Origin: Ktedonobacterales bacterium
Lineage (GTDB): Bacteria; Chloroflexota; Ktedonobacteria; Ktedonobacterales; DATBGS01
NCBI GenBank assembly: GCA_036557285.1
Contig: DATBHW010000020.1
Span: 62,001-126,000, forward strand
Reading direction: 5' to 3'
DNA: 64,000 nucleotides
Shown: piece by piece, positions 3,725 through 18,683 of the stretch
How positions within the stretch are numbered: position 1 is the first letter of the stretch
Layout of the letters: every line of letters begins with the position of its first letter
Program-made: the position numbers and the translations under genes
The notes under the pieces: generated by a model
What the model was told of the DNA's origin: nothing
Database searches by the model: none
Seen by the model: only the letters and a program-made list of their open reading frames with translations

Positions 3725-5329
3725 ATGAGATCTGACAATGCCTATTGGTTCGGCATGTTTTCGGGCATAAGGAAAGTGTTATGGGTATACAGGCTGGCCG
3801 TTCAGCGCGCCTACCTTATCATTCTCGGAATCCTTCTGGTAGCCAGCGCTGCTTATATCTGGTCCAGCCAGCAGATCATTACCTATCAAGCCTCGGCCTT
3901 CGTCATGGTTGCAGACCAGTCTCATGCCAGCCCTGATGCCCCACTAGAGGGTGTTGCTTATGCCGCCACCCTGGCCGCCCAGTATGCTGCAAGGCCCATC
4001 ACATCGGCGATGATTGGCCGCGCGCAAGCAAGTGTCCCCCGGCGCGGAGCCGCGCAAATTCGTGAGGAAGTGCATCTGGCTGCTGTCACCGGCCAGCCTC
4101 TTATTATGGTTACTGCTGTGGATACGGATGCCCCAACTGCGATGGCGCTTGCCAATAGTATGGCAGGTGTTCTGGCACAAGCTGATACCGATCTTGTCAG
4201 ACAAGCCGATGACCAGAAGGTTGCAACCCTTCAGTCTCAGGTCAACACCTTGTCGGTAGATGTTGGCAAGACCATCAACGCGATTGCTCTGGCTCGCCAT
4301 CGTGGTTCTTCTGGCGCCAGCCTCCAGGCGAAGTTACAACAGCAGCAAATGGAACTGGATCAATTGCAGATACAGCTAGCCCAGGCTCAGAGAAATGCCG
4401 CCAGTGTCCAGCCGATGTTCTGGGTCTCATCGCTCGCTCTAAGCGCTTCACAGAACGCGCCCAATCTCCTCTTGAATACATCCCTTGGGGCGCTTGCCGG
4501 AGCTTTGGGCGGTCTAGGGCTGGCTGAGATGGCCGATTTGCTAGGCGGTGTTGTGCGAGGTGTTGAGGATTTCTTGCGCTGGGAACAAGTGAGTCCGCTG
4601 GGCGAGGTTCCTGATGCTCCCGCCAATGAATCGCCATTTGTATTTACCGACGAAATGTACACGGCTGTGGCTCAGCCCTTCCGCCGGGTCTGGAAAAATC
4701 TCCAGTTTCTCAGCGGTCAGCAGACAGGGCAAGCGACGCTGGTCCTGCCGGTAGGTAGCGTGCCTTTCGATGGTTGGGTAGGGCTAAACCTCGCCGTAAC
4801 TTCTGCGCGATTGGGCCAGCGAACGCTACTTCTTGATACCAATTGGATACAACCAACGGTGGAGGGGTACTTTCAGTTACCAGTCTCTGAGCAGGGATTT
4901 TTTACAAGTCTGGCAGCCATGAACCCATCCTCCTTAGACCATTGGCTGGCTATCAAGCCAACAGATACCCCCCATCTATTTGTGTTGCCTGCTGGACCTC
5001 TTTCTTCGTACCCTGATGTCCTGGCGCAGCCACAATTGCTTGTCGAACTTTTTGGCATGCTGCGGCAGGACTTTGCCCAGATCATTGTTCTTCCGCCGCC
5101 TAAATCGCTCCAGCTTTCCGATGGAGTATTTATGGAACAAATGAATCATGTTTTGCTCGTCGCACGCAGCAAGCACACCACTATCGCAGAGATAAAGCCG
5201 GTGCTCGCTGAGCTGGAGAAGGCGGATAGTCCCTTCCTGGGAGCGGTTGTGTTGGTCAGTACATCTGGCTTGTTCAGCCACTTACCGCTTGGGGCGGCTC
5301 AAAGAACTGAAGAGACAGAGGAACCCTGA
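3725..5329 (+). CDS. Wzz/chain-length-determinant-like protein with degenerate BY-kinase domain
   Basis: The 534-residue protein resembles a fused polysaccharide copolymerase and BY-kinase. A membrane segment lies near residues 30-48, then a periplasmic-type region with a coiled coil (about 160-225), then a second hydrophobic segment near 250-275. The C-terminal half follows the P-loop tyrosine-kinase fold: LNLAVTSARLGQRTLLLDTN near residue 355 aligns with the NLA...A..G..vLLiDaD stretch. The Walker A lysine loop is missing, replaced by VGSVPFDGWVG, and no tyrosine-rich tail is present. It is therefore probably a structural or regulatory pseudokinase controlling chain length or export. The start has an AAGGCAGG site. 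It is followed 12 bases later by the flippase-polymerase-transferase fusion. Confidence 0.75.
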   Translation: MRSDNAYWFGMFSGIRKVLWVYRLAVQRAYLIILGILLVASAAYIWSSQQIITYQASAFVMVADQSHASPDAPLEGVAYAATLAAQYAARPITSAMIGRAQASVPRRGAAQIREEVHLAAVTGQPLIMVTAVDTDAPTAMALANSMAGVLAQADTDLVRQADDQKVATLQSQVNTLSVDVGKTINAIALARHRGSSGASLQAKLQQQQMELDQLQIQLAQAQRNAASVQPMFWVSSLALSASQNAPNLLLNTSLGALAGALGGLGLAEMADLLGGVVRGVEDFLRWEQVSPLGEVPDAPANESPFVFTDEMYTAVAQPFRRVWKNLQFLSGQQTGQATLVLPVGSVPFDGWVGLNLAVTSARLGQRTLLLDTNWIQPTVEGYFQLPVSEQGFFTSLAAMNPSSLDHWLAIKPTDTPHLFVLPAGPLSSYPDVLAQPQLLVELFGMLRQDFAQIIVLPPPKSLQLSDGVFMEQMNHVLLVARSKHTTIAEIKPVLAELEKADSPFLGAVVLVSTSGLFSHLPLGAAQRTEETEEP

Positions 5330-5341
5330 AGGATAGCATCC

Positions 5342-8300
5342 ATGCCTGATACGGTCTATTCCGCTCCTTTGGATTCGGAGGATGTGACGGAGGACTCCAG
5401 GGAAGTGGAAGTTTTCACCGACCCCCGGCTCGCCATCGCCAGCGTTACAACCGAACCTTTGCCAAGGGTGCAGGCTGCGAGCGAACGCTCGGTCAATGTG
5501 CGTATTCTGGCTGCTCTTATCAGTCTATCCGGGGCTTCTATTGCAGCGCGCGCGTTCGGAGTACTCAATCAGGTGGTGATTTCAGACCATTTTGGCGCGG
5601 GTGTCTCAATGGACGCCTATTTTGCTGTCCTTGCGTTGCCAACACTCCTGACCAACCTGATTGTGAGCGCGCTGCAAGCCTCGGTCATTCCCACCTATGT
5701 GCGTCTCACCAGGGCCAATCAAGAGCGGGAAGCATCGGACGTGTTGAGTACGCTCTTTAATCTCGTGATCTTGTTCCTTGCCGGTGTGCTGGCGCTGATG
5801 CTCTTCTTTCCACGATTTGCCATCAGTCTCTTTGCCCCCGGCGTCTCTTCTGCCACGGTTGATGTTGGGGTAACGCTGGCGCCCCTGATCTTTCCCACAT
5901 TACTGCTGAACATTTTTGTGGGCTTTATCACCAGCGTCTTTAATGCCTCCCGCCGCTTTGCCTTTCCAGCCTTTACGGCTATGCTGATGCCGTTAGGTAT
6001 TCTCGTTGCGACCATTTTGCTCAGTTCGCAGTTTGGCGTCTCAGCGTTGGCTATCGGCCAACTGGTAGGGACTGGCCTCCAATTCCTCATCATGCTGGCG
6101 CTGGTAAGGAAGGCTCGATTTTCCTACCGCCCCGTACTCCGTCTGGGCAGCCCTCATGTTCGTGTGGCGCTCGGCCAGCTCTGGCCGATGCTCTTCGGCG
6201 CTACGATTGGGCAAGCCAATCCGGTTATTGACCAGATAGTCGCCTCGACACTCGGTTCTGGCGCCATCTCTGCCCTCAACTATGCGTTGAAGGTTATCAG
6301 CATTCCGGTCACAATGATTTTTATGGCAACTTCGCAAGCGGTTCTGCCGTACTTTGCGAGCCAGGCGGCAGCGCGGGACTTTAGAAGCCTGAAAAAGACG
6401 CTCAACCTGTTTCTATGGGCCATTGGGATCATCACGCTTGTGGTAACGGTAGGATTCATTGTATTCGCCCAACCCATTATCACCTTGTTGTTTCGTCATG
6501 GAGCATTCACCGATGAGAGCGCCCAAAAAACATCTGCAACGCTCATCGGCCTGGCAGTGGGCCTTCTCCCGATGGCATGGGGCTTCATGATTCCGCGCGT
6601 CTTTAATTCCTTACACCGTAATGATGTCCTGTTAAGAATTGCTATCTTTACCCTGATAACCAATGTCGTGCTTGATATTGCGCTGGCGCGCTTCCTGGGC
6701 CTGCCGGGTATTGGTTTGGCAACATCACTCGCTTACCTGCTCACCACACTCATCCAGATCGCGGTGCTGCGTTTGCTCATTGGTCCGTTGGGTCTGCTGC
6801 GGGTTCCCCCACAGTTGCTGGAGTGGCTATCTCCTCAGCGTTGGATGGGCAGGACTCGCTTCTCGCGGGCCGGGCCACCGAGGAGATTCAACTCCTGGCG
6901 TATCCTCAGAAATGGCGCGCTGGTCTTGGGCGGATTCCTTGTTGTTGCTGTTATCGCCAGCCGCGATGCCATCCAAGGGGTACGTGTCTCGCTGGGTATG
7001 GCGCTGGCGTTTTTCTTCCTGCCCTCACCCTATCTGCTCTTGTTGACCTGGGCCGGTATGGGAGCGTTCTATGATGTCTATATCGGCGGGCATTCAATCG
7101 GGTTTGTGCTGGCCCTTGCCTCACTGCCTGCCTTTGCTCTGGCGTTCTGGCGCCAATGGCGCGGTCTGGCGCGCCAGACCTGGGCGATCTGGGCCTATGT
7201 GTTTTTCCTTGTCTGGCTGCTGCCTGGCGCGAGACTGTCGCCGCTGGGGTTGAGCGAATTCAGCGTTACGGTGTGGGGCCTGTTTGATTATCTGGCCCTG
7301 ATGGTGTTTACCGTCGCTATGCTGACAACTCGTGATCGCTTTGAGCGCTTTCTTTCTGTACTGCTGACGACCTCGACGCTCCTCTGCTTCGTTGGCCTTG
7401 CTGAATATGCGCTGCGCTTTGGCGGCTCTCAGCAGGAGGGCGTCATCTGGATTTATCGGGTGGGCGGCGTCTTTGGGTGGTACAACTCGTTTGGCTTTTA
7501 CCTTGATCTGCTGCTTCCTCTTTGCCTCTATCGCCTGTTGACGGCGCCGCGCGGGCGGCGACGGTTCTGGGGCGGCATTCTTGCGCTCCATGTGCTGGCG
7601 CTCGGCCTTACCTTTAGTCGCGCAGGGATGATTTCTGCCATCTTTATGGTGATTACGACAGCAATGCTCCTCAACGGCAGGCTGCGCTGGTGGATGTTAC
7701 GGGGCGTGTCAGGCGTCATTGCGCTGATCGCCGTACTGCTGCTGATCCCAGGGCTGGGGCTGAACCAGCGGCTGCTTGGTGATCATCTGCTGACGTTAGA
7801 TGACCGCACAGATGCCTGGGGATTGCTGTTAAGCCAGCTTGATCTGCGTAACCCGTTTGGGCATAGCTATTACGCCTCCTGGGCGCTCTTGCTGCGAGAC
7901 CACCCAGGTGGAGTTGCAGCGCCCCACAGCCTTTACCTACAAACGCTCTTTGATATGGGCATTCCCGGCCTGGCCTTTTTGCTTGCCACTTTTGCCCTGC
8001 TGCTCTGGGGGGGGACACGAAAAGCGCTTCGCAGCCAGGGAGAGGCGCGCATCGCGGCGGCGGTTGCCACCGGGGGAATCTTCGGCGCTGTGGTCAACAG
8101 TCTGGTGGGCAATGAATTTCTCGATTTTGCGCTGGGCCTCCACTTCTGGTTCCTGGCAGCCTTACCCTATCTGCCGCTCTTTGCGGCTGGGTCTGGGCGG
8201 CGAAAGGGCGCTGCTGCTCCAGCGCCAGCCCAGCAGAAAGATAGTCTTTCCGTCCAGTTTGTCACCTGGCAATTTTTTCCCTTCGTCGGGGGGGCTGAGG

Positions 8301-9622
8301 TGCGCGCGCTGCGCGAGGCCAGGGCGTTGCAGGCCAGAGGGCATCGGGTGCATGTGCTGACGCTGCGCCTGAAGCGCTCGCTGGCAGCGACGGAGGAGAT
8401 TGAGGGCGTGCCAGTACGGCGTATTGGCGGCCTGTTTGTGCGTGGTAGGCTGCGCCTGCGCTTTGGGGCGCAGTGGATTGCTGAGTGGTTGCTCTTCCGT
8501 GAACTGCTTCGCGCCCGAAATAGCTATCAAGTGGTTCATCTGCGTCAGCTCAGCGTGCTGGCTCGTCCGGCGGCGCTGGCGGCGCTCTTCACCGGCAAGC
8601 CGCTCTTCATTCGCCTGGCAAGTACCAGTCCTTCAGACGATCCCCTGGTTCGCATGAGCGCAAAGACAACGCTCTGCCTTGGGCCTCTTAATCCTTCGCT
8701 GCCGTTTCTCCAGGTTGAGGAGCATAGCTGGGCTGGCAGCGATCTTCAGACGCTCAGGCGTTCGCAGTGGCTGGCTGGCCTTACCCTCTGGCTGCTGAAA
8801 TATTGTGGCGCGGTCTTCATTGCCATCAGCACGCGCATTCAGACCACATTGCAAAAGATCGGTTTTCGCCCAAAACGGATTGCGCTGCTTCCCAATGGTA
8901 TTGACCTGGACCAATACAAAGAGTACGCGCTCGGCGTGAGCATGCGCCTGGCTGCCCAACCGACCGAAGCGCCAAAAGTGGTCTGTGCTGCGCGCTTTAA
9001 CTATGTTAAGGGTCTAGATGTCTTGATTCACGCATGGCGCGAGGTTCACGCGGCGCTGCCAGAGGCCAGGCTTCTGCTGGTTGGCGGTGGCACTTTGCGC
9101 TATCAGCTTGAAGCGCTGGCTGCTGCTCTTGATCTGAGCCAGAGTATTGAGTTTATTGATCTGACGCAGGATGTTCGCCCGTTTCTCGCTGAAGCCGATC
9201 TCTTCGTACTGCCATCGCGTTTTGAGGGGATGCCCAACGCGCTGCTGGAGGCGATGGCCTGCGGGCTGCCCTGTGTCGCTACCCGTGTCAGTGGCAGCGA
9301 GGATGCAATTGTTGATGGTGAATCTGGTTTGCTCGTGCCTCCCGGCGATCCGGAGAGCCTGGCAAAAGCGCTGCTGGCACTACTGATGGATCGGAATCGC
9401 GCGCGGGCCTGTGGCGCTGCTGCTTATATGCGCGTGCAGCAGCATTTTCAGGATGATACGCTGATTGATCAACTGCTTGGTCTCTATCACGAGGCTGTTG
9501 GGGGGAAACATCTTTTGCCAACTCCAGTGGGCCTTCAAGAGGCAGCGCCGTTCTCTGGCGCTCCTACGGAGACGCCCTCTCTGGCAAGGCCAATGAGCGC
9601 CAGAGCAAAAAGCGAGGAATAG
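5342..9622 (+). CDS. tripartite fusion: MurJ/MviN-like flippase, O-antigen polymerase/ligase-like domain, GT4 glycosyltransferase
   Basis: A single uninterrupted 1426-residue frame joins three normally separate proteins. Residues about 50-490 match MurJ/MviN lipid-linked-precursor flippases: ARAFGVLNQVVISDHFG near the start, then QANPVIDQIVAS and many membrane helices. Residues about 520-950 form another polytopic domain with O-antigen ligase/Wzy features, including LTFSRAGMISA near 760 and AAPHSLYLQTLFDMGIPG near 860. Residues about 968-1395 are a cytoplasmic GT4 glycosyltransferase, with FPFVGGAEVRALREARAL at its start and SRFEGMPNALLEAMACG near 1292. A GAAGGA site precedes the ATG and the next gene starts 4 bases after the stop. 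The fusion suggests physical coupling of sugar addition, translocation and polymerisation. The MurJ part may flip a polysaccharide unit rather than lipid II. Confidence 0.85.
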   Translation: MPDTVYSAPLDSEDVTEDSREVEVFTDPRLAIASVTTEPLPRVQAASERSVNVRILAALISLSGASIAARAFGVLNQVVISDHFGAGVSMDAYFAVLALPTLLTNLIVSALQASVIPTYVRLTRANQEREASDVLSTLFNLVILFLAGVLALMLFFPRFAISLFAPGVSSATVDVGVTLAPLIFPTLLLNIFVGFITSVFNASRRFAFPAFTAMLMPLGILVATILLSSQFGVSALAIGQLVGTGLQFLIMLALVRKARFSYRPVLRLGSPHVRVALGQLWPMLFGATIGQANPVIDQIVASTLGSGAISALNYALKVISIPVTMIFMATSQAVLPYFASQAAARDFRSLKKTLNLFLWAIGIITLVVTVGFIVFAQPIITLLFRHGAFTDESAQKTSATLIGLAVGLLPMAWGFMIPRVFNSLHRNDVLLRIAIFTLITNVVLDIALARFLGLPGIGLATSLAYLLTTLIQIAVLRLLIGPLGLLRVPPQLLEWLSPQRWMGRTRFSRAGPPRRFNSWRILRNGALVLGGFLVVAVIASRDAIQGVRVSLGMALAFFFLPSPYLLLLTWAGMGAFYDVYIGGHSIGFVLALASLPAFALAFWRQWRGLARQTWAIWAYVFFLVWLLPGARLSPLGLSEFSVTVWGLFDYLALMVFTVAMLTTRDRFERFLSVLLTTSTLLCFVGLAEYALRFGGSQQEGVIWIYRVGGVFGWYNSFGFYLDLLLPLCLYRLLTAPRGRRRFWGGILALHVLALGLTFSRAGMISAIFMVITTAMLLNGRLRWWMLRGVSGVIALIAVLLLIPGLGLNQRLLGDHLLTLDDRTDAWGLLLSQLDLRNPFGHSYYASWALLLRDHPGGVAAPHSLYLQTLFDMGIPGLAFLLATFALLLWGGTRKALRSQGEARIAAAVATGGIFGAVVNSLVGNEFLDFALGLHFWFLAALPYLPLFAAGSGRRKGAAAPAPAQQKDSLSVQFVTWQFFPFVGGAEVRALREARALQARGHRVHVLTLRLKRSLAATEEIEGVPVRRIGGLFVRGRLRLRFGAQWIAEWLLFRELLRARNSYQVVHLRQLSVLARPAALAALFTGKPLFIRLASTSPSDDPLVRMSAKTTLCLGPLNPSLPFLQVEEHSWAGSDLQTLRRSQWLAGLTLWLLKYCGAVFIAISTRIQTTLQKIGFRPKRIALLPNGIDLDQYKEYALGVSMRLAAQPTEAPKVVCAARFNYVKGLDVLIHAWREVHAALPEARLLLVGGGTLRYQLEALAAALDLSQSIEFIDLTQDVRPFLAEADLFVLPSRFEGMPNALLEAMACGLPCVATRVSGSEDAIVDGESGLLVPPGDPESLAKALLALLMDRNRARACGAAAYMRVQQHFQDDTLIDQLLGLYHEAVGGKHLLPTPVGLQEAAPFSGAPTETPSLARPMSARAKSEE

Positions 9623-9626
9623 GCAT

Positions 9627-11558
9627 ATGTGTGGGATCGCTGGTTTCGTCAACATTGGTCTGAATAACGAGGATGCTGGAGCATTATTAGCCAGCATGAC
9701 CGATATTATTCACCATCGTGGGCCTGATGACGAGGGACACTGGCTGAAGGATGGTGTCGGCCTGGGAATACGACGCCTGAGTATTATTGATCTCAGCGGC
9801 GGGAAACAGCCGATTACCAATGAAGATGGCTCCGTCATTGTGGTTTATAACGGGGAGATCTATAACTATCAGGCGCTCCGTCAGGAACTTGAGGCAGCCG
9901 GCCATCATTTCACCACCAACAGCGATACCGAAACGATTGTCCATGCCTATGAGGAGGATGGGCTTGATTTTACACGTCGACTGCGCGGAATGTTCGCTAT
10001 TGCCATTTGGGACCAGAAGCACAGGCGTCTGGTCCTGACACGCGACCGCTTTGGCAAAAAGCCGCTTTACTACTGCTTCGATGGGCAGCGTCTGCTCTTT
10101 GGATCAGAGATGAAGTCGCTGCTTCTGGCGCCCGGTCTCTCCAGAGAACTCGATCCCGTTGCTATCAACCAGTACTTCACCTACGGCTATATACCCGCGC
10201 CGCGAACGGCCCTGACGGGTATCTCTAAGCTAGCAGCCGCCCATACGCTCAGCTTTGAGAACGGCAGCATCGTGCTCCAGCGCTATTGGCAGCTCGATTT
10301 TACACCACGTTGTATGGATGATGAAGAGACGGCAGTGCAACGAGTGCGTGAATTGTTCGCCGAGGCGGTGCGCATCCGGCTGATGAGCGAAGTGCCGCTT
10401 GGCGCTTTCCTCAGCGGTGGCATAGATTCGAGCTGTGTTGTCGCCCTGATGAGCCAGGTCGCCACTGAACCGGTGAAGACGTTTTCCATCGGGTTTGAGG
10501 AGCAGGATTACAGCGAGGTGAAGTATGCCCGGCTCGTGGCGCAGCGCTATCAGACCGATCATCATGAATGTATCGTCCGGCTTGATCTGCTGGATGTGCT
10601 GCCGCGCCTGATCTGGGATTTTGACGAGCCATTTGCCGACGCTTCGATGGTGCCAACCTACTATGTCTCAAAGCTGGCGCGCCAGCATGTCACGGTGGCG
10701 CTTTCCGGGGATGGGGGGGATGAGTTGTTTGGTGGATATATGCGCTATGCCCGTATGATGGCCGATAATTGGGTGGATAGACTTGGCCCCCTCCGAAGAG
10801 TAGGGCCGCTGGTGAGCGCGCTCATGCCCGGTGGGATGAGGGGTAAAAATCGCCTGCGCGCCCTTGCTCTTGATCCTGAAGTGCGCTACATCGAGGGATC
10901 GTCTATCTTCCCTACGCCGCTTCGTCAGCGCCTGCTTCAGAGTGAGTTTCTCGTAGGAGGCGCGGCTGATTCCCAGCGTATACAGCTTGATCACTTTGCT
11001 GAAGCGCGGAGCCTCGATTTTTATACCCGAATGCAGCATGTAGATGTTGCCTGTTATCTGCCCTATGACATCCTGGTAAAAGTGGATAAAGCCAGCATGC
11101 TGACCTCGCTGGAGGCGCGCGCCCCGCTCCTCGATCATGTGCTGGGCGAGTATGTCGCTTCCCTACGGCATGAGGTGCGCAACCCCGGCGGGCAGCAAAA
11201 ATATCTCCTCAAGCGTGTAGCAGAGAGCCTGCTCCCTGATGAGATTCTTCATCGGCCAAAGAAAGGGTTTGGGCTTCCGATTGAACATTGGTTCCGGGGC
11301 GAACTGAAGGAACTCGCCTGGGATATTCTCCAGAGCCAGCAGGCTAGCAATCGTGGCGTCGTCAATACTGGGCAGGTGGAGCGGCTCCTCGCCGATCATC
11401 AAAGCCATCTGTATAATCATGACCGGCGCATCTGGGCGTGGCTCTGCTTTGAGTTGTGGTGTCGTCTGTATCTTGATGGAGCCGATCACTCAGCGTTCTG
11501 GCCGCTCAAGAGTCGCCCATCACTGGCAGCGTCTGGTGGAGAGAGGGGGATGCGTTAG
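9627..11558 (+). CDS. asnB: glutamine-dependent asparagine synthetase-family amidotransferase
   Basis: The 643-residue protein begins MCGIAGF, with Cys2 as the class II glutaminase nucleophile. Conserved stretches include HHRGPDDEG near residue 30, NGEIYNY near 76 and RDRFGKKPLYY near 140. The synthetase half has the PP-loop SGGIDSS near residue 264 and ALSGDGGDELFGGY near 358. The reaction known for the family is ATP- and glutamine-dependent amidation of a carboxylate. Inside a polysaccharide cluster with a UDP-sugar 6-dehydrogenase, the acceptor could be a uronic acid instead of aspartate, as known for WbpS-type enzymes; this is an inference. The downstream glycosyltransferase starts 2 bases after the stop, so translation is probably coupled. 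Confidence 0.9.
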   Translation: MCGIAGFVNIGLNNEDAGALLASMTDIIHHRGPDDEGHWLKDGVGLGIRRLSIIDLSGGKQPITNEDGSVIVVYNGEIYNYQALRQELEAAGHHFTTNSDTETIVHAYEEDGLDFTRRLRGMFAIAIWDQKHRRLVLTRDRFGKKPLYYCFDGQRLLFGSEMKSLLLAPGLSRELDPVAINQYFTYGYIPAPRTALTGISKLAAAHTLSFENGSIVLQRYWQLDFTPRCMDDEETAVQRVRELFAEAVRIRLMSEVPLGAFLSGGIDSSCVVALMSQVATEPVKTFSIGFEEQDYSEVKYARLVAQRYQTDHHECIVRLDLLDVLPRLIWDFDEPFADASMVPTYYVSKLARQHVTVALSGDGGDELFGGYMRYARMMADNWVDRLGPLRRVGPLVSALMPGGMRGKNRLRALALDPEVRYIEGSSIFPTPLRQRLLQSEFLVGGAADSQRIQLDHFAEARSLDFYTRMQHVDVACYLPYDILVKVDKASMLTSLEARAPLLDHVLGEYVASLRHEVRNPGGQQKYLLKRVAESLLPDEILHRPKKGFGLPIEHWFRGELKELAWDILQSQQASNRGVVNTGQVERLLADHQSHLYNHDRRIWAWLCFELWCRLYLDGADHSAFWPLKSRPSLAASGGERGMR

Positions 11559-11559
11559 C

Positions 11560-12765
11560 ATGGGGCAGAGCGACGGAGCGCTGGAACAGGCGCTTGCTAA
11601 CCCTCCGGCTGCTGCGAGACCCCTGCGCATCCTGTATCTTATGGAGCAGCTAGACATGGGCGGCGCTGAGCGGCGCTTTGTGCGCATGGCGCGGATGCTG
11701 AATCGGGATCAGATGCAGCTTGTTGTTGGCGTTTTGCGGCCAGGTGGGGCGCTCGAAGCTGATCTGCACTCGTTGGGCGTCGAGATCGTGCCCTTTACAC
11801 GTCATGGCCGCTTTGATCCCTCGCCCGTATGGCGCCTCGCGCATTATGTGCGCAAAGAGCGCATTGACGTTGTACACGCGATGCACTGGCTTTCTAGTCT
11901 GGTAGCAATGCTGGCTGCCTGGCAAATACCCCATCTCGCCGTGATTGGCTCAACCGTCAACCTGTTTTATGATAAGGCTCCTGCTGGGAAGTACCGCCTG
12001 ATGCTCGATCACCTGTTCTGGCGGCGAATGGACTACATGGCGGTCAATGCGCTGGCCCTGCGCGACTACCTTGTCCAGCGGCGCTTTCCTGAAAAACGTC
12101 TGATGGTCATTGCAAATGGCGTTGATATTCCTGATACGGCGCGCCTTTCTCCAGCCACCCGCGAGGCCGCGCGCGCTGCGCTCGGTGTTCCTCCGCATGC
12201 GCCGCTGATTGGGACCGTAGCCCGGCTTGAACCAGCTAAGAATCTCCAGATGTTGTTACATGCTGCCAGGGCAGTTTGTGCGCGCTTTCCTGATGCCCGC
12301 TTTGTCCTGGTTGGCAATGGCAGCGAGCGCGCGCCGTTAGAGGCATTGGCGGCCACATTGGGAATCAGTGAGAAGGTGCTGTTCACTGGCGAGGTCGCTC
12401 ACAGCGATCTGGTCCTGCCTGCGTTTGATGTGTTTGTCCTCTGCTCGCGCTTTGAGGGGATGCCCAATGTTTTGCTGGAGGCTGGCGCGTGGGGGCTGCC
12501 GTTGATCTCAACGCCGGTTGGGGGAACGGTGGAGATCGTTCTGGATGAGAAAACCGGCTTCCTGACCCCGATGGGGGACGCTCCCGCCCTGGCTGAGCGC
12601 ATCGGCGCCCTGCTGGAGCGTCCCGATCTGGCTGCTGCGTTCGGGCACGCTGCACGCGCGCACGTGATGAACCATTTCTCAAGCAGCACTATGATCCAAC
12701 GCTATGAAGCTCTGTATCGCATGGCCGCTGAAGCGCGAGCCATGAGAGGACGCTCAGGCTTATGA
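11560..12765 (+). CDS. GT4-family glycosyltransferase
   Basis: The frame is open from further upstream inside asnB, but the likely ATG is at 11560, two bases after the asnB stop and behind GAGAGGGGG. The resulting 401-residue protein has MEQLDMGGAERRFVRMA near residue 30, an N-terminal GT-B acceptor motif. It also has IGTVARLEPAKNLQMLLHAA near 220 and SRFEGMPNVLLEAGAWGLP near 300. It belongs to the GT4 transferases that build lipid-linked repeat units in the cytoplasm. Its last four bases overlap the start of the next glycosyltransferase (ATGA), which indicates one operon. Confidence 0.88.
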   Translation: MGQSDGALEQALANPPAAARPLRILYLMEQLDMGGAERRFVRMARMLNRDQMQLVVGVLRPGGALEADLHSLGVEIVPFTRHGRFDPSPVWRLAHYVRKERIDVVHAMHWLSSLVAMLAAWQIPHLAVIGSTVNLFYDKAPAGKYRLMLDHLFWRRMDYMAVNALALRDYLVQRRFPEKRLMVIANGVDIPDTARLSPATREAARAALGVPPHAPLIGTVARLEPAKNLQMLLHAARAVCARFPDARFVLVGNGSERAPLEALAATLGISEKVLFTGEVAHSDLVLPAFDVFVLCSRFEGMPNVLLEAGAWGLPLISTPVGGTVEIVLDEKTGFLTPMGDAPALAERIGALLERPDLAAAFGHAARAHVMNHFSSSTMIQRYEALYRMAAEARAMRGRSGL

Positions 12766-14105
12766 ATATTTTGATCTGTAACAATCGCTATTTCCCTTCA
12801 ACAGGGCCAGAACGCTATCTTTTTGCCATTACGGGTCTGCTAGAAAAGCATGGTCATGCAGTAGTTCCTCTCGCCGCCAATTATAGCCAGACAGTTGATA
12901 CCCCCTACCGGCGCTATTTTGTTCCGCCCCCGGTTGATGCTGAAAGCGTCTTCTTCCAGCAATACAAAGACAGGTTGACTCTGCGTAAGCAGGCGGGCCT
13001 GGTGGCGCGAGCAACGTACTATCCTGCTGCGCGTGAGGCGGCTCATCGCGCAATTGTTGAGCAGCAGATCGATCTGGTCTATCTGCTGAGTATGGTCAAT
13101 GTTCTCTCGCCAAGTATCATTGATGCCGCCTATGCGCATGGGATTCCTGTGGTGATGCGCCTCTCCGATTTCAACCTCCTCTGCCCCGCGTATGTGTTCA
13201 TGCGCGACGGGAAAGTCTGCCAGGATTGCCTGGGCGGCTATCATCACGCGCTGCGCCATCGCTGTCTTCAGGGGTCGGCGATGGTCACAGGCGCCAGGGT
13301 GGTTGCGATGATGGCTCACAATGCACTGGGCATTTACAAGAAAGTGGACGCCTTCATCGCCCCTTCACGCTTTATGGTGAGCCAGATGGAGCAGTATTTC
13401 AAGCCTGCGCGTGGACGCATCGTTCACATCCCTAGCTTTGTCGATCAGGCGCTGCTCGATGCGCGTCCAGGCCAAGCAAGTGCCGGAGATCACCAGATAA
13501 GCAATGGAGTGGGGAAACGGCCCTATATCCTCCAGTTCGGGCGTGTTTCGTCCGATAAAGGCGTTGCTATTACGCTCCGAGCATATGCTGGACTTGAGCG
13601 CGATGTTGATCTAGTGATCGCAGGCGAGAGCAGCAATGATTATCGCCTGCGTATGGAAGAGTTGGCGTTGTCTCTCGGAGAAACAGGTGTGCGCTTTACA
13701 GGCTTTGTGCAAGGTGAAGCACTCTCTTCACTCATTGCAGGAGCGTTGTGCGTTGTTGCGCCCTCTACCTGTCATGATAATGCCCCGATGAGCGTCTATG
13801 AGAGCCTGGCATATGGCAAGGCGGTGATTGGGAGTGACCTGGGTGGTATCAGCGAGCAGCTTGAGCATGGCTGCGGATTGCTTATCCCGCCAGGTGATGC
13901 AGAGGCGCTGCGCCACTCGCTGCGCCAGGTCATTGATGATCCGCTGCTGCGCGCGAGCCTGGAGCGCGCGGGGCAGCAGCGCGCGCTCAACGAGTACGCG
14001 CCGGAGCGCCATTATGCGCGCTTACTGGAGGTTTTCCAAAACGTCTGCGCTGGCGAGCGGCGCCTGGGAACGCATGCCAGGGATCGGCTCATAACGCATA
14101 AGTGA
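12762..14105 (+). CDS. GT4-family glycosyltransferase
   Basis: This 447-residue GT-B enzyme starts at an ATGA overlap with the preceding gene. Recognisable parts are the N-terminal CNNRYFPSTGPERYLF, a cysteine-containing segment near residues 146-165 (LLCPAYVFMRDGKVCQDC and later HHALRHRC) common in one GT4 subgroup, LQFGRVSSDKGVAITLRAYA near 260 and APSTCHDNAPMSVYESLAYG near 335. It should add a further sugar to the repeat unit. Its 3' end overlaps the convergent DUF4012 gene by 17 bases, marking the end of the plus-strand operon. Confidence 0.88.
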   Translation: MNILICNNRYFPSTGPERYLFAITGLLEKHGHAVVPLAANYSQTVDTPYRRYFVPPPVDAESVFFQQYKDRLTLRKQAGLVARATYYPAAREAAHRAIVEQQIDLVYLLSMVNVLSPSIIDAAYAHGIPVVMRLSDFNLLCPAYVFMRDGKVCQDCLGGYHHALRHRCLQGSAMVTGARVVAMMAHNALGIYKKVDAFIAPSRFMVSQMEQYFKPARGRIVHIPSFVDQALLDARPGQASAGDHQISNGVGKRPYILQFGRVSSDKGVAITLRAYAGLERDVDLVIAGESSNDYRLRMEELALSLGETGVRFTGFVQGEALSSLIAGALCVVAPSTCHDNAPMSVYESLAYGKAVIGSDLGGISEQLEHGCGLLIPPGDAEALRHSLRQVIDDPLLRASLERAGQQRALNEYAPERHYARLLEVFQNVCAGERRLGTHARDRLITHK

Positions 14106-16293
14106 TGTTGTACGTCTTATCCTTATCAATGGTCCCCTTATACGTCAGAATGGGCGCTCGCGCTCCTGGCGCTGTAACAGTCAGCGTCAATTGCTGGTTG
14201 GACCCCGACTGATGTTGGAAAATAAGCTGGTAATGCCAATGAGCAGAAGCGTCTGCTGTTGCGGCGTTTGGTACCGACCAGATCAGATGCAGCGAATAGC
14301 GTTTGCCGTCTTGCACGTTCACGTATCCTCCCCACATCTGGCGACCAGGCTCATCACTGTGATTGATTTGGTTCGAGCCACCGTTCAGCCCTTTCAAGCT
14401 CTTCAGTTTCGCGTTAGCGGGCGCGTAGACGCGCAGGTAGGTCAAATAACGATCTTGCCCAAAGAGCGTCTTGGGGTCTGTCACTTTGTAGTTGTAGGTG
14501 ATGGTGAGGTTGTGCGTTGCCGTCCCCTGGGCGTCCAGAGTCACGTTATCAGTATAACTGACGACAGTAAACTGACTCCCCTTGTTTACCCCCACATTGG
14601 AGTCAATGATGGTGACGCCATCTCCAGGCCCTTGGGTAATCGTCCCATCGAACTTGTGTTGAGCCAGCAGCGCCTCAGCATTTTTATCGCTTAGATAGAC
14701 CTGAATGTCCTTCGTCTCCAGACTGGTGATGGCTGCTCTGGCTATGTCAACGAGTTTGCTTGTTGGCAGGCCATGCAGCTTTTCTAAAAAGGCGCGCGCC
14801 AATAGAGCGGTGAAGCGTTTGCGCGGGGAACTGATTTGATCGCTTGGCGGTAAATTCGTTAGAGGGTCATTTTTTTTGGTCTGCTGGTAATAATGAATGA
14901 GCCGCTCCAAGTTCTGGTCGGTGACGGTCTCATGATAATCAGGCACGACGATTGGCCCAATGATTTTAATCACGCGCGCGATGGCTGGCGGAGTAAAAGC
15001 GATGACTCCTTGTACGGCAGGCCCGCCCTCCAGCTTGAGCATGCGCATCCCTGTTTGCGCGGCAGTTGGAAAATTGGCCGAGATATTAGAATCGCGTAGT
15101 CCGAAGCAGCAAAAGGGCCACCAGGGATAAATAGCTGGGTGATTACTATCATGCTTTTGTACATAGGGAAGATCGAGAAGATAGGTATCACTGAGCGTAA
15201 AGGGTTGCACCTGCCCATTCTTGATGGTCATCACACCGTAATTGCCGATAAATCCACCGGTTGAGCGTAGTTCGCTGCGATCCATGAGTTCTAGCAAGAA
15301 GCTCTCCGGGGTGGTGACTCCGAGCAGGCTGGGGGCCACGCTCAACCAGGCTTCCACCTCAGCAAATTTCGTTTGGATGCTGGGCCAGATAGTCAGTAGC
15401 TGGCGTACTTGATTGACTTGCTGGGGCTTGAGCAGCCCCGCAGGTATAGCAGATAAGTCAGCATGCTGCGCATACAGCACCGCGCTGTTGAGATGATGGA
15501 AAGCGTCTTCGAGGTTCTGCTGAAGTTGCTCCAGCAAGTGAGCATTTAACGATGGCGGCGGTGTTCCCGTCTGCGCTGGGGGTGAACTGCTAGCAAATAA
15601 CCCTGCCTTCAGGACGCCATTAAGCATCTGGAGACTCTTAACCAGATCAAGACCAGCAAAACAAGCCTGATTGGCGGCATCTACCAATGCGCCCAAGGAA
15701 GCAATGGTGGTGTTCGTTATCGGCAGATGCGCAGCAATGAAAAAACTGCCAGCAGGCTCTTCAAGATCGCTGTGCAGGAGCGTAAAGTCATGCTGAGCGG
15801 CGGTCATTTCTTGCTGAAGCTGCTGAAGGATAGCCGGGTCCAACAACTCCCCTAGATTGCCCTGTGACGGCATCAGCGCCTCGATGCGATGCAAGTGCAG
15901 CGCTGCATCGTTTGCCTCAGCGCGTGCGCGAGAGACACGCATCGCTGCGTCTATGGCGCCGGAGAGCGTACCAAGAAGAATCAATGTCAGGATTGCCAGG
16001 AGGATTGCCCGGTGTCTCAACTTCGAGATAACTTTGGGCGAAAGCCCCTGCCGGGTAGATCTAAAGATTCCACCCAGACCTGTTGCCCTTAACAGGTACC
16101 CGCGAAAGCCTCCCCCAAAATTAGGAAGCCGCTGTTTTCTCCTGGGGCGCTTTCCCTTCGGCTCTTGCTTCCGCGTGCCTGCGCTTATTTTACTCCGGGG
16201 GTCCACTGCCGGGAAATCCTCAGACGATCTGGTGTGTCCAGGTGGTGAAATAGGGCCAAAAGGATACGCAGCATCATCCCTTCTTCCAGGCAT
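14089..16293 (-). CDS. DUF4012 domain-containing membrane-anchored protein
   Basis: The first possible ATG is at 16314, but the ATG at 16293 has an AAGGAG site seven bases upstream and is preferred, giving 734 residues. A basic N-terminal tail of about 100 residues is followed by one membrane helix (LAILTLILLGTLSGAIDAAM) and a large extracytoplasmic region. The signature ESFLLELMDRSELRSTGGFI near residue 320 and the following GNYGVMTIKNGQ are typical of DUF4012. The family recurs in polysaccharide loci of Actinobacteria and Chloroflexota but has no established biochemical role. A surface function in glycan attachment or assembly is possible. It is the last gene of a minus-strand group with the sugar-nucleotide enzymes. 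Confidence 0.8.
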   Translation of the reverse strand: MPGRRDDAAYPFGPISPPGHTRSSEDFPAVDPRSKISAGTRKQEPKGKRPRRKQRLPNFGGGFRGYLLRATGLGGIFRSTRQGLSPKVISKLRHRAILLAILTLILLGTLSGAIDAAMRVSRARAEANDAALHLHRIEALMPSQGNLGELLDPAILQQLQQEMTAAQHDFTLLHSDLEEPAGSFFIAAHLPITNTTIASLGALVDAANQACFAGLDLVKSLQMLNGVLKAGLFASSSPPAQTGTPPPSLNAHLLEQLQQNLEDAFHHLNSAVLYAQHADLSAIPAGLLKPQQVNQVRQLLTIWPSIQTKFAEVEAWLSVAPSLLGVTTPESFLLELMDRSELRSTGGFIGNYGVMTIKNGQVQPFTLSDTYLLDLPYVQKHDSNHPAIYPWWPFCCFGLRDSNISANFPTAAQTGMRMLKLEGGPAVQGVIAFTPPAIARVIKIIGPIVVPDYHETVTDQNLERLIHYYQQTKKNDPLTNLPPSDQISSPRKRFTALLARAFLEKLHGLPTSKLVDIARAAITSLETKDIQVYLSDKNAEALLAQHKFDGTITQGPGDGVTIIDSNVGVNKGSQFTVVSYTDNVTLDAQGTATHNLTITYNYKVTDPKTLFGQDRYLTYLRVYAPANAKLKSLKGLNGGSNQINHSDEPGRQMWGGYVNVQDGKRYSLHLIWSVPNAATADASAHWHYQLIFQHQSGSNQQLTLTVTAPGARAPILTYKGTIDKDKTYNITYAL

Positions 16294-16365
16294 TGAATAT
16301 CTCCTTTGTAACACATCCCTTTTTCGTACCTGCCGTGTATGCCAAAACCAGGGCTGTGCTGATTC

Positions 16366-17718
16366 CTAAGCGTGAAGAGCAACTTTGCCAGGCCGCACCA
16401 GCCTCCAGACATGACTATCAACCGAGAGATGACCAGTGGCATTACGTGTATCTACAACAAGCGAGGCCGAGCGCACGACACGTTCATAATCAATAGTACT
16501 GTGGTCTGTGACAATGACGACCCCATCAACAGAGGTCAATAGCTCGTCAGTCAACGGCTCTGTCGAGAGCGTATGGTCGCCCAGGCGCAGTTCAGGCACA
16601 TACGGGTCCGAGTAGATCACGGCTGCATGTCGGTCTTGCAGCAATTCTATAATATCCAGCGCGGGTGACTCACGCACATCGCTGACATCGCGTTTATAAG
16701 CAACCCCAAGGATGAGCAGGCGCGCGCCATTCAGACATTTCCCGTGTTCGTTGAGCGCCAGGGTGATCTGCTCCACGACGAAGCGAGGCATTTCAGCGTT
16801 TACCTCACTCGCCAGTTCAATGAAGCGCGCTCGATAGTTCAATGATCGCAGCTTCCACGCGAGGTAGTGCGGATCGATGGGGATACAATGGCCGCCTAGC
16901 CCTGGACCTGGATAGAAGGGCAAAAAACCAAATGGTTTCGTTGCCGCCGCCTGAATAATCTCCCACACATCAACGCCCAGGATATTTGCCATTTGCGCCA
17001 GTTCGTTGACCATCCCGATATTCACAGCCCGAAATGTATTTTCAAGCAGCTTCACCAACTCAGCCGCTTTCGGCGAACTGACAGGAACGATGCTCTCTAC
17101 GATTGTGCTATACAAGGCGCTGGCGAGTCGAGTGCATTGCTCGGTTACTCCACCGATCACCTTCGGGGTATTGCGGAGGTTAAAGTGGGGATTACCGGGA
17201 TCGATGCGCTCTGGCGAGAATGCCAGAAAGAAATCATGCCCCACGGAAAGTCCTGTTTTTTCCAACATCGGCAGCAGGAGTTCTTCGGTTGTCCCTGGAT
17301 AGGTGGTGCTTTCTAGCACGATCAGTTGACCAGGATGAAGTGTTCGTGCGATGTGTTCTGCGGCGCTCATCACAGAGGAGATGTCGGGGTCTCTTGTCTT
17401 TCGGAGGGGCGTTGGTACGCAAATACTGACTGTATCTACCTCGGCGAGCCGCCCAAAATCACTCGTTGCCGAGAACTTGCCCGCTCTGACCAACTCCTGA
17501 AGCAACGCGCCATTCACATCGGCAATATGGCAGATACCCTGGTTGAGCGCGGCGACACGATGCTGGTCAATATCAAAACCAATGACCTGAAAGCCCGCTT
17601 GTGCAAGGCCAGTCGCTAAAGGCAGGCCAACATACCCCAGGCCAATGACGCCGACAACTGCGTGTCGTTGCTCTATCCGGGTGAGCAGGCTGATCAATAA
17701 GATACTCCATTCATCCAT
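16366..17718 (-). CDS. UDP-N-acetylglucosamine/UDP-sugar 6-dehydrogenase (WbpA-like)
   Basis: This 450-residue enzyme belongs to the UDP-glucose/GDP-mannose dehydrogenase family. It has the NAD-binding GVIGLGYVGLPLA near residue 25, LVVLES-like LIVLESTTYPGTTEE near 150, and the catalytic region FYPGPGLGGHCIPIDPHYLAWK near 265 with the nucleophile cysteine. The PGLGGHCIPIDP form is typical of UDP-GlcNAc 6-dehydrogenases such as WbpA, although the exact substrate cannot be fixed from sequence. It would oxidise C6 of the sugar twice to give a UDP-uronic acid for the exopolysaccharide. It sits 23 bases behind the 4-epimerase gene in the same direction. Confidence 0.87.
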   Translation of the reverse strand: MDEWSILLISLLTRIEQRHAVVGVIGLGYVGLPLATGLAQAGFQVIGFDIDQHRVAALNQGICHIADVNGALLQELVRAGKFSATSDFGRLAEVDTVSICVPTPLRKTRDPDISSVMSAAEHIARTLHPGQLIVLESTTYPGTTEELLLPMLEKTGLSVGHDFFLAFSPERIDPGNPHFNLRNTPKVIGGVTEQCTRLASALYSTIVESIVPVSSPKAAELVKLLENTFRAVNIGMVNELAQMANILGVDVWEIIQAAATKPFGFLPFYPGPGLGGHCIPIDPHYLAWKLRSLNYRARFIELASEVNAEMPRFVVEQITLALNEHGKCLNGARLLILGVAYKRDVSDVRESPALDIIELLQDRHAAVIYSDPYVPELRLGDHTLSTEPLTDELLTSVDGVVIVTDHSTIDYERVVRSASLVVDTRNATGHLSVDSHVWRLVRPGKVALHA

Positions 17719-17741: not shown

Positions 17742-18683
17742 TCAGCGGGCGCTGCTGAGCGCTTCCAGCGTGCGCGCCAATCCATCAGCGAATCGGACCG
17801 TTGGTTCATAGCCCAGCAGGTGTTGAGCTAACTGAATGTCTGCCAGGCTATCATGGACATCCCCGGCGCGGGCCTCCTGATACTCGGCCTCGACAGTCTG
17901 TCCCAGGAGCGCCCCGGCCAGGCGTAGTAGCTTATTCAACGAAATCTGCTCCCCACAGCCGATATTGATTGCCTGGCCTGCTGCTTCAGTCGCTTCAGCA
18001 GCGAGCAAATTAGCCTCAACGACATTAGCGATATAGGTGAAGTCGCGGGTCTGCTCGCCGTCACCAAAGACAATGGGCGTCTGTCCGGCAAGCAAGGCTT
18101 GCAAAAAGCGCGGGATCACAGCAGCATATTGTGAAGTCGGGTCTTGTCGCGGGCCGAAGACATTAAAATAGCGCAAGGCCACCGTTTCCAGACCATACAC
18201 CTGGGTGAACAAGCGACAGAGATGCTCCCCGGTGAGCTTATGCAGGGCATAGGGAGACATGGGCGATGGAGGCATCGTTTCCCGTTTGGGTAACGTCGGG
18301 GTGTTCCCGTAGACTGAGGAAGAGCTGGCATAGACGACCCGCCGCACTCTGGCATCACGCGCCGCCAGCAAGACATGTTGTGTCCCAGTGACGTTCACTT
18401 CCAGGGTGGTACGTGGATCAGCGATAGAGCGCGGGACCGAGGCAAGGGCCGCCTGGTGAAATACGACCTCGACCCCTTCAACAGCGGCGCGCACGGCGGC
18501 AAAATCGCGCAGATCGCCCTGTACGATCTCGGCCTGCCGCTCAAGAGGAGTAATATTGCCTTCCTTGCCGGTTGAGAAGTCATCAAAAATACGCACAGCT
18601 TTTCCCTGCTTCACCAGCGCCTGAGCAAGATGGGAACCGATAAAGCCCGCGCCACCCGTCACAAGATATTGTGCAGGTTTCAT
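17742..18683 (-). CDS. NAD-dependent UDP-sugar 4-epimerase (UDP-GlcNAc/UDP-Glc epimerase family)
   Basis: The 313-residue protein is an extended short-chain dehydrogenase. It has TGGAGFIGSHLAQAL at residues 9-23 for NAD binding, the catalytic serine region YASSSSVYGN near 118, the YALHK catalytic pair near 143, and RYFNVFGPRQDP followed by YAAVIPRF near 170-185. The RQDP...YAAVIP combination is seen in WbpP/Gne-like UDP-N-acetylglucosamine 4-epimerases. It probably interconverts UDP-GlcNAc and UDP-GalNAc, or the glucose pair, ahead of the dehydrogenase encoded next. It is the first gene of this minus-strand group, diverging from the Trp T-box leader. Confidence 0.85.
   Translation of the reverse strand: MKPAQYLVTGGAGFIGSHLAQALVKQGKAVRIFDDFSTGKEGNITPLERQAEIVQGDLRDFAAVRAAVEGVEVVFHQAALASVPRSIADPRTTLEVNVTGTQHVLLAARDARVRRVVYASSSSVYGNTPTLPKRETMPPSPMSPYALHKLTGEHLCRLFTQVYGLETVALRYFNVFGPRQDPTSQYAAVIPRFLQALLAGQTPIVFGDGEQTRDFTYIANVVEANLLAAEATEAAGQAINIGCGEQISLNKLLRLAGALLGQTVEAEYQEARAGDVHDSLADIQLAQHLLGYEPTVRFADGLARTLEALSSAR

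Follow-up and report, generated by a model that had tools for sequence, protein, structure and literature searches.

A MurJ-type flippase, a Wzy_C polymerase/ligase-like domain and a GT4 glycosyltransferase in a single polypeptide of a Ktedonobacterales bacterium

Three machines that most bacteria usually make separately, a flippase, an O-antigen polymerase/ligase-like enzyme and a GT4 glycosyltransferase, are encoded as one protein in a Chloroflexota bacterium. The gene lies in a stretch of 64,000 nucleotides (nt) from a Ktedonobacterales bacterium (assembly GCA_036557285.1, contig DATBHW010000020.1, positions 62,001 to 126,000; hereafter the window) and poses the question whether the protein is a genuine fusion, where its parts came from and what it may assemble. 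A first-pass annotation of the window had treated the fusion as one unusual event. Instead, it has two layers: a MurJ-Wzy fusion at the level of the order, and the addition of a GT4 domain, which alone is specific to this genome. The conserved MurJ-Wzy fusion is the unusual and robust part of the finding, and its evolutionary core is best explained as an ancestral fusion of the Ktedonobacterales; the triple form is confined to one genome. We consider it probable that the protein sits in the membrane and assembles a lipid-linked surface polysaccharide by a Wzx/Wzy-type route, with a flippase-polymerase core and a cytoplasmic GT4 domain.

The fusion gene is one open frame with an ATG start and without internal stop (Table 1). 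The protein has a flippase, polymerase/ligase and GT4 architecture, with the following family and fold assignments. Pfam MurJ (PF03023) matches residues 80-476 (E 8.5e-69, 232.7 bits, cut-off 27.4), and NCBIfam MurJ (TIGR01695) exceeds its cut-off of 235.55 with 239.4 bits. Wzy_C (PF04932) covers residues 747-881 (E 1.1e-11, 45.2 bits, cut-off 31.7). Glyco_transf_4 and Glycos_transf_1 match at 982-1362, where PF13439 (N-terminal) and PF00534/PF13692 (C-terminal) are the GT-B profiles found. These profiles confirm the three signatures in the order first described, and AlphaFold/Foldseek agrees for the first two. The junctions, originally placed at about 6830 and 8220, both fall inside linkers, and GC content, taken by codon position, runs through each without a break. 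The reverse strand of the gene holds only stops and nothing of note, and a defence-system library gave no match.

Using the middle third of the fusion protein as query, we searched 47 genomes of the class, and then an alignment profile was run against the same 47 and against 400 genomes across the phylum. A further 15 genomes of the order have their match in a frame of 966-1059 residues, and full-length alignment identifies all 15 as MurJ-Wzy proteins with 28-51% identity to the 1426-residue fusion. The profile returned 16 of the 47 class genomes, precisely those already found, with a single copy in each. Named carriers include Dictyobacter aurantiacus, D. kobayashii, D. arantiisoli, Ktedonosporobacter rubrisoli, Ktedonobacteria bacterium brp13 and Ktedonobacterales metagenome-assembled genomes; three of them are complete chromosomes (CP126532.1, NZ_CP035758.1 and AP024096.1). 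Since MurJ-Wzy occurs in independent genomes, including these chromosomes, the first junction is an order-level feature and no sequencing error. The initial statement that such proteins are normally separate thus holds for the GT4 domain but not for MurJ and Wzy, which are often fused in this order. The absence of MurJ-Wzy from 31 of the 47 genomes may reflect loss, patchy gain or incomplete assemblies. Elsewhere in Chloroflexota, the 400 genomes yielded no MurJ-Wzy protein, and among the matches listed, the others cover MurJ only. Searches of the open-access literature turned up no account of a MurJ-Wzy fusion. Three other kinds of long frame were checked, none of which is MurJ-Wzy: a MurJ protein with a long C-terminal extension and weak TPR matches (L127:4729-7326, genome G108), an N-extended MurJ (L154), and a 939-residue Wzx-type flippase (Polysacc_synt) with a C-terminal hexapeptide acyltransferase-like domain (L156:1350-4166, genome G164).

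The relatives also point to the origin of the third domain. In all 15 other MurJ-Wzy genomes, the gene that comes directly after MurJ-Wzy, in the same orientation, encodes a relative of the fused GT4; a second GT4 gene and then an amidotransferase gene usually come next. The spacing between MurJ-Wzy and GT4 ranges from a 4-nt overlap to a gap of about 160 nt. G084 is the closest relative: about 100 nt separate the end of its flippase-polymerase from the start of its GT4, and a tree groups the fused GT4 with this separate gene with 97% support. In the source species, the adjacent downstream GT4 gene would have lost its stop-start boundary and so become the third domain. No triple MurJ-Wzy-GT4 fusion was found elsewhere in the 47 class genomes or the 400 phylum genomes, and no named close relative of the full triple form turned up. 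Whether the joining brought any advantage is a separate matter. That the fused GT4 is functionally inconsequential, a short intergenic gap having been lost between domains that would work equally well apart, falls only a little short of an even call: the genes are already adjacent in the relatives and the triple form is limited to one species. Nothing counts directly against it; the E-x7-E active-site motif (EGMPNALLE, residues 1295-1303) is intact, so that the domain is not decaying. This alternative is compatible with the assembly enzyme proposed above and bears solely on the advantage of the fusion.

For the middle domain, a search with the Wzy profile against PDB sequences gave nothing significant, so that fold comparison was needed. 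Modelled separately, the domain reached a predicted local distance difference test score (pLDDT) of 71.3 and a predicted template modelling score (pTM) of 0.76. Its sole significant structural match is the O-antigen ligase WaaL (7tpg, E 1.4e-5, TMq 0.53), and FtsW is a weak second (E 0.08). R706, R810, R822 and W826 are conserved in the middle domain and H865 mostly so, and the loop residues correspond to motifs that the genome's standalone Wzy_C proteins also show. Residues 520-950 therefore do resemble polymerases/ligases, a similarity whose absence the first-pass annotation had named as a possible refutation, both by the Wzy_C profile and by the WaaL-type fold. An unlikely alternative is that this domain is a ligase, which would transfer the glycan, once flipped, to a protein or to an acceptor in the wall. 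Such a role would agree with WaaL as the only significant match and with a Wzy_C family that spans polymerases and ligases. However, WaaL as the sole solved match may merely reflect which structures are solved, and the fusion is immediately preceded by a Wzz-type co-polymerase gene, which also stands close upstream in most relatives; this argues for chain-length-controlled polymerisation. We thus favour a predicted polymerase role on account of this upstream gene.

The second junction deserves equal scrutiny. The linker contains no in-frame stop, and no in-frame ATG, GTG or TTG that could open the GT4 is present between 8105 and 8300. Because of these two features, the GT4 fusion is likely genuine, though known from one assembly. 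Codon scores favour the true frame on either side of the linker; inside it, frame +1 scores slightly above the true frame and frame +2 very poorly (-10 to -18 bits). Alternatively, the GT4 could be a separate, overlapping gene, if the assembly has dropped one base somewhere between about 8181 and 8242. The flippase-polymerase would then end at a TAG at 8242 in frame +2 and the GT4 would start upstream in another frame, for instance at the TTG at 8181 in frame +1, while MurJ-Wzy would stay real. Separate GT4 genes in all 15 other genomes, the linker scores of frame +1 and the single assembly would fit this scenario. Yet it presupposes a sequencing error together with either a TTG start or a long overlap, plus the badly scoring frame +2, in a linker without a long homopolymer and without a start codon that opens the GT4 in frame. 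We regard it as very unlikely, and keep a small residual probability for an artefact because one missing base and a TTG start could mimic a fusion.

The N-terminal domain is a MurJ-type rather than a Wzx-type flippase, as had been proposed; profile, fold and tree concur. An AlphaFold model of residues 1-967, based on 14 sequences (pLDDT 71.5, pTM 0.49), retrieved MurJ structures at Foldseek ranks 1-15 (best 7wax, TMt 0.80, E 8e-14). MATE transporters and WzxE follow, WzxE being lower by E-value with a comparable TM-score. The Wzx-branch profiles PF01943 (Polysacc_synt) and PF13440 did not match the fusion. The MurJ profile match ends at position 399 of 451, so that transmembrane helices 13-14 (TM13-14) are not recognised by the profile; a low-confidence predicted hairpin at residues 518-559 could be their remnant or part of the polymerase domain. 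The tree gathers the 16 fused MurJ domains in a single clade (99% by the Shimodaira-Hasegawa-like approximate likelihood ratio test, SH-aLRT) and leaves all 21 other MurJ proteins tested from the order outside it; E. coli and Thermosipho MurJ sit on long branches, and their placement is unsure.

MurJ is a family name here and does not denote a peptidoglycan function. In MurJ, the triad R24-D25-R255 contacts the pyrophosphate (PMC11706664; PMC9973255), and R24A and R255A inactivate the Thermosipho protein (PMC6465408). This triad has become N76-Q77-K317 in the fusion protein, where R52 is also replaced by T and the E-G-A motif is lost. The equivalent of D39 is kept, as is R18 of T. africanus MurJ (R70), which is the only one retained from the essential cavity set of R18, R24 (with D25) and R255. 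Across the fused clade, the R24 position is N in 14 of 16 proteins and the R255 position is K in all 16. The unfused MurJ proteins of the order keep R24 in 20 of 21 cases and deviate at several other sites; in none of the 21 aligned (L120-L139) are R24, D25, R52 and R255 all present, as they are in E. coli and Thermosipho MurJ. Because most of the lipid II triad is lost and the fused domains form a clade of their own, the flippase probably carries a substrate other than lipid II and would not be a peptidoglycan flippase. A role in peptidoglycan synthesis, in which the protein would unite a lipid II flippase with a SEDS-like polymerase, could draw on the MurJ-family membership and the weak FtsW match, but is barely credible given the altered triad, two further MurJ genes in the source genome, 31 of 47 class genomes in which MurJ-Wzy was not found, and the polysaccharide genes in the cluster. 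The same genome also holds an unfused pair, a MurJ gene (685 residues) followed by a Wzy_C gene (519 residues), with phosphoglycosyl transferase and GT4-like genes further on (L134, G000:C44, 2933-6697).

The co-polymerase, amidotransferase, GT4 and sugar-nucleotide genes around the fusion (Table 1) bear out the polysaccharide-assembly context seen at first pass. Two details change. The Wzz-like gene and two GT4 genes are indeed neighbours, but the gene directly downstream encodes an amidotransferase and the GT4 pair comes after it; and the Wzz-like protein, a co-polymerase, carries a BY-kinase-like domain without Walker A. Its homologues in G084 and G041 also lack Walker A, and a GEGKS-type motif is kept in most Ktedonobacteraceae homologues. 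A BY pseudokinase serving as a scaffold is known from Myxococcus (EcpK; PMC12004946). The amidotransferase resembles the XrtA/PEP-CTERM amidotransferase TIGR03108 at 656.5 bits, below the cut-off of 816.9; almost every related locus has a homologue of it right after the GT4 gene or genes. In many relatives, the gene immediately before MurJ-Wzy is an orthologue of the dehydrogenase gene. The last GT4 gene shares its final 17 nt with a convergent gene for a DUF4012 protein (14089-16314), which has a homologue nearby in G084.

Table 1. Coordinates of the fusion gene, its parts and neighbouring genes in the window
Feature	Position	Strand	Remarks
Wzz-type co-polymerase	3725..5329	+	no Walker A in its BY-kinase-like domain; 12 nt before the fusion
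Whole fusion gene	5342..9622	+	1426 residues; MurJ-type flippase, Wzy_C polymerase/ligase and GT4 glycosyltransferase
MurJ-family flippase domain	5489..6781	+	about residues 50-480
Flippase/polymerase linker	6782..6892	+	residues 481-517; Arg-rich, low pLDDT, predicted cytoplasmic
O-antigen polymerase/ligase-like membrane domain	6893..8185	+	residues 518-948; WaaL-like fold
Ala/Pro/Gln/Lys-rich linker	8186..8254	+	residues 949-971; site where the neighbouring GT4 gene joined
GT4 glycosyltransferase domain	8255..9499	+	about residues 972-1386
C-terminal tail	9500..9619	+	residues 1387-1426; no domain found
Asparagine-synthase-type amidotransferase	9627..11558	+	starts 5 nt after the fusion stop
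GT4 glycosyltransferase	11560..12765	+	longest open reading frame from 11353; ATG at 11560 is the likelier start
GT4 glycosyltransferase	12762..14105	+	
UDP-glucose/GDP-mannose dehydrogenase	16366..17718	-	
NAD-dependent sugar epimerase/dehydratase	17742..18683	-	

How might such a protein work? The C-terminal GT4 domain, which helix counts in the model and the positive charge of both linkers would place in the cytoplasm, would attach a sugar to the still unflipped unit at the cytoplasmic face. The N-terminal MurJ-family domain would then flip an undecaprenyl-pyrophosphate-linked sugar unit rather than lipid II, and the middle Wzy/WaaL-like domain would polymerise the units on the outer face. 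In this scheme the substrate, the polymerase over the ligase, the topology and whatever benefit a fixed stoichiometry or a hand-off might bring are inferences. The fixed 1:1:1 assembly and the assignment of the last cytoplasmic sugar transfer to the GT4, both put forward in the first-pass annotation, are likewise conjectural. Several points weigh against an assembly enzyme of this kind. The structure models are moderate (pLDDT 71; pTM 0.49 and 0.76). The Wzy_C family does not tell polymerase from ligase, and the GT4 fusion comes from a single assembly. Finally, no phosphoglycosyl transferase gene was found beside the fusion; the three PF02397 genes of the genome, PF02397 being the sole initiating family searched, are on contigs C44, C73 and C81. 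A stronger version, in which the protein is a single-chain assembly line that passes a GT4-finished repeat unit through a repurposed MurJ-type flippase to the attached polymerase, and the MurJ-Wzy family is a natural flippase-polymerase complex of fixed stoichiometry, is tentative and in our view rather doubtful.

Compared with known systems, the locus resembles the Wzx/Wzy pathway in that it has, by family, a flippase, a Wzy_C protein, a Wzz-type co-polymerase with a BY-kinase-like domain, GT4 enzymes and sugar-nucleotide enzymes. It differs in that flippase and polymerase, and in this genome the GT4, share one polypeptide, and in that the flippase belongs to the MurJ branch and not to the Wzx (Polysacc_synt) branch. 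MurJ (MviN) itself shares the fold and the TIGR01695 membership with the fusion, but has no Wzy attached. The WaaL/Wzy (PF04932) proteins have the same fold and, in most members, the same loop motif (R, RT..W, H), whereas the domain described here is part of a larger protein. Closest are the two-domain MurJ-Wzy proteins of Dictyobacter, Ktedonosporobacter and other Ktedonobacterales, which are single-copy sequence orthologues with a similar gene order, but which are shorter (about 956-1058 residues) and have their GT4 encoded separately; no experimental account of them was found in the literature searched.

How a flipped lipid-linked sugar unit is transferred to the polymerase, and in what stoichiometry the parts act, is an open question; a 2025 review names full-length structures of Wzx, Wzy and Wzz, also in complex, and their stoichiometry as main gaps (PMC12004945). 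MurJ-Wzy offers a single-chain construct for structure work, available from cultured Dictyobacter and Ktedonosporobacter. If the proposed function is true, the family would also contain a MurJ-branch flippase that has given up most of its lipid II residues in adapting to another substrate. A flippase and a polymerase that were fused early and retained in one lineage argue for joint action of the two.

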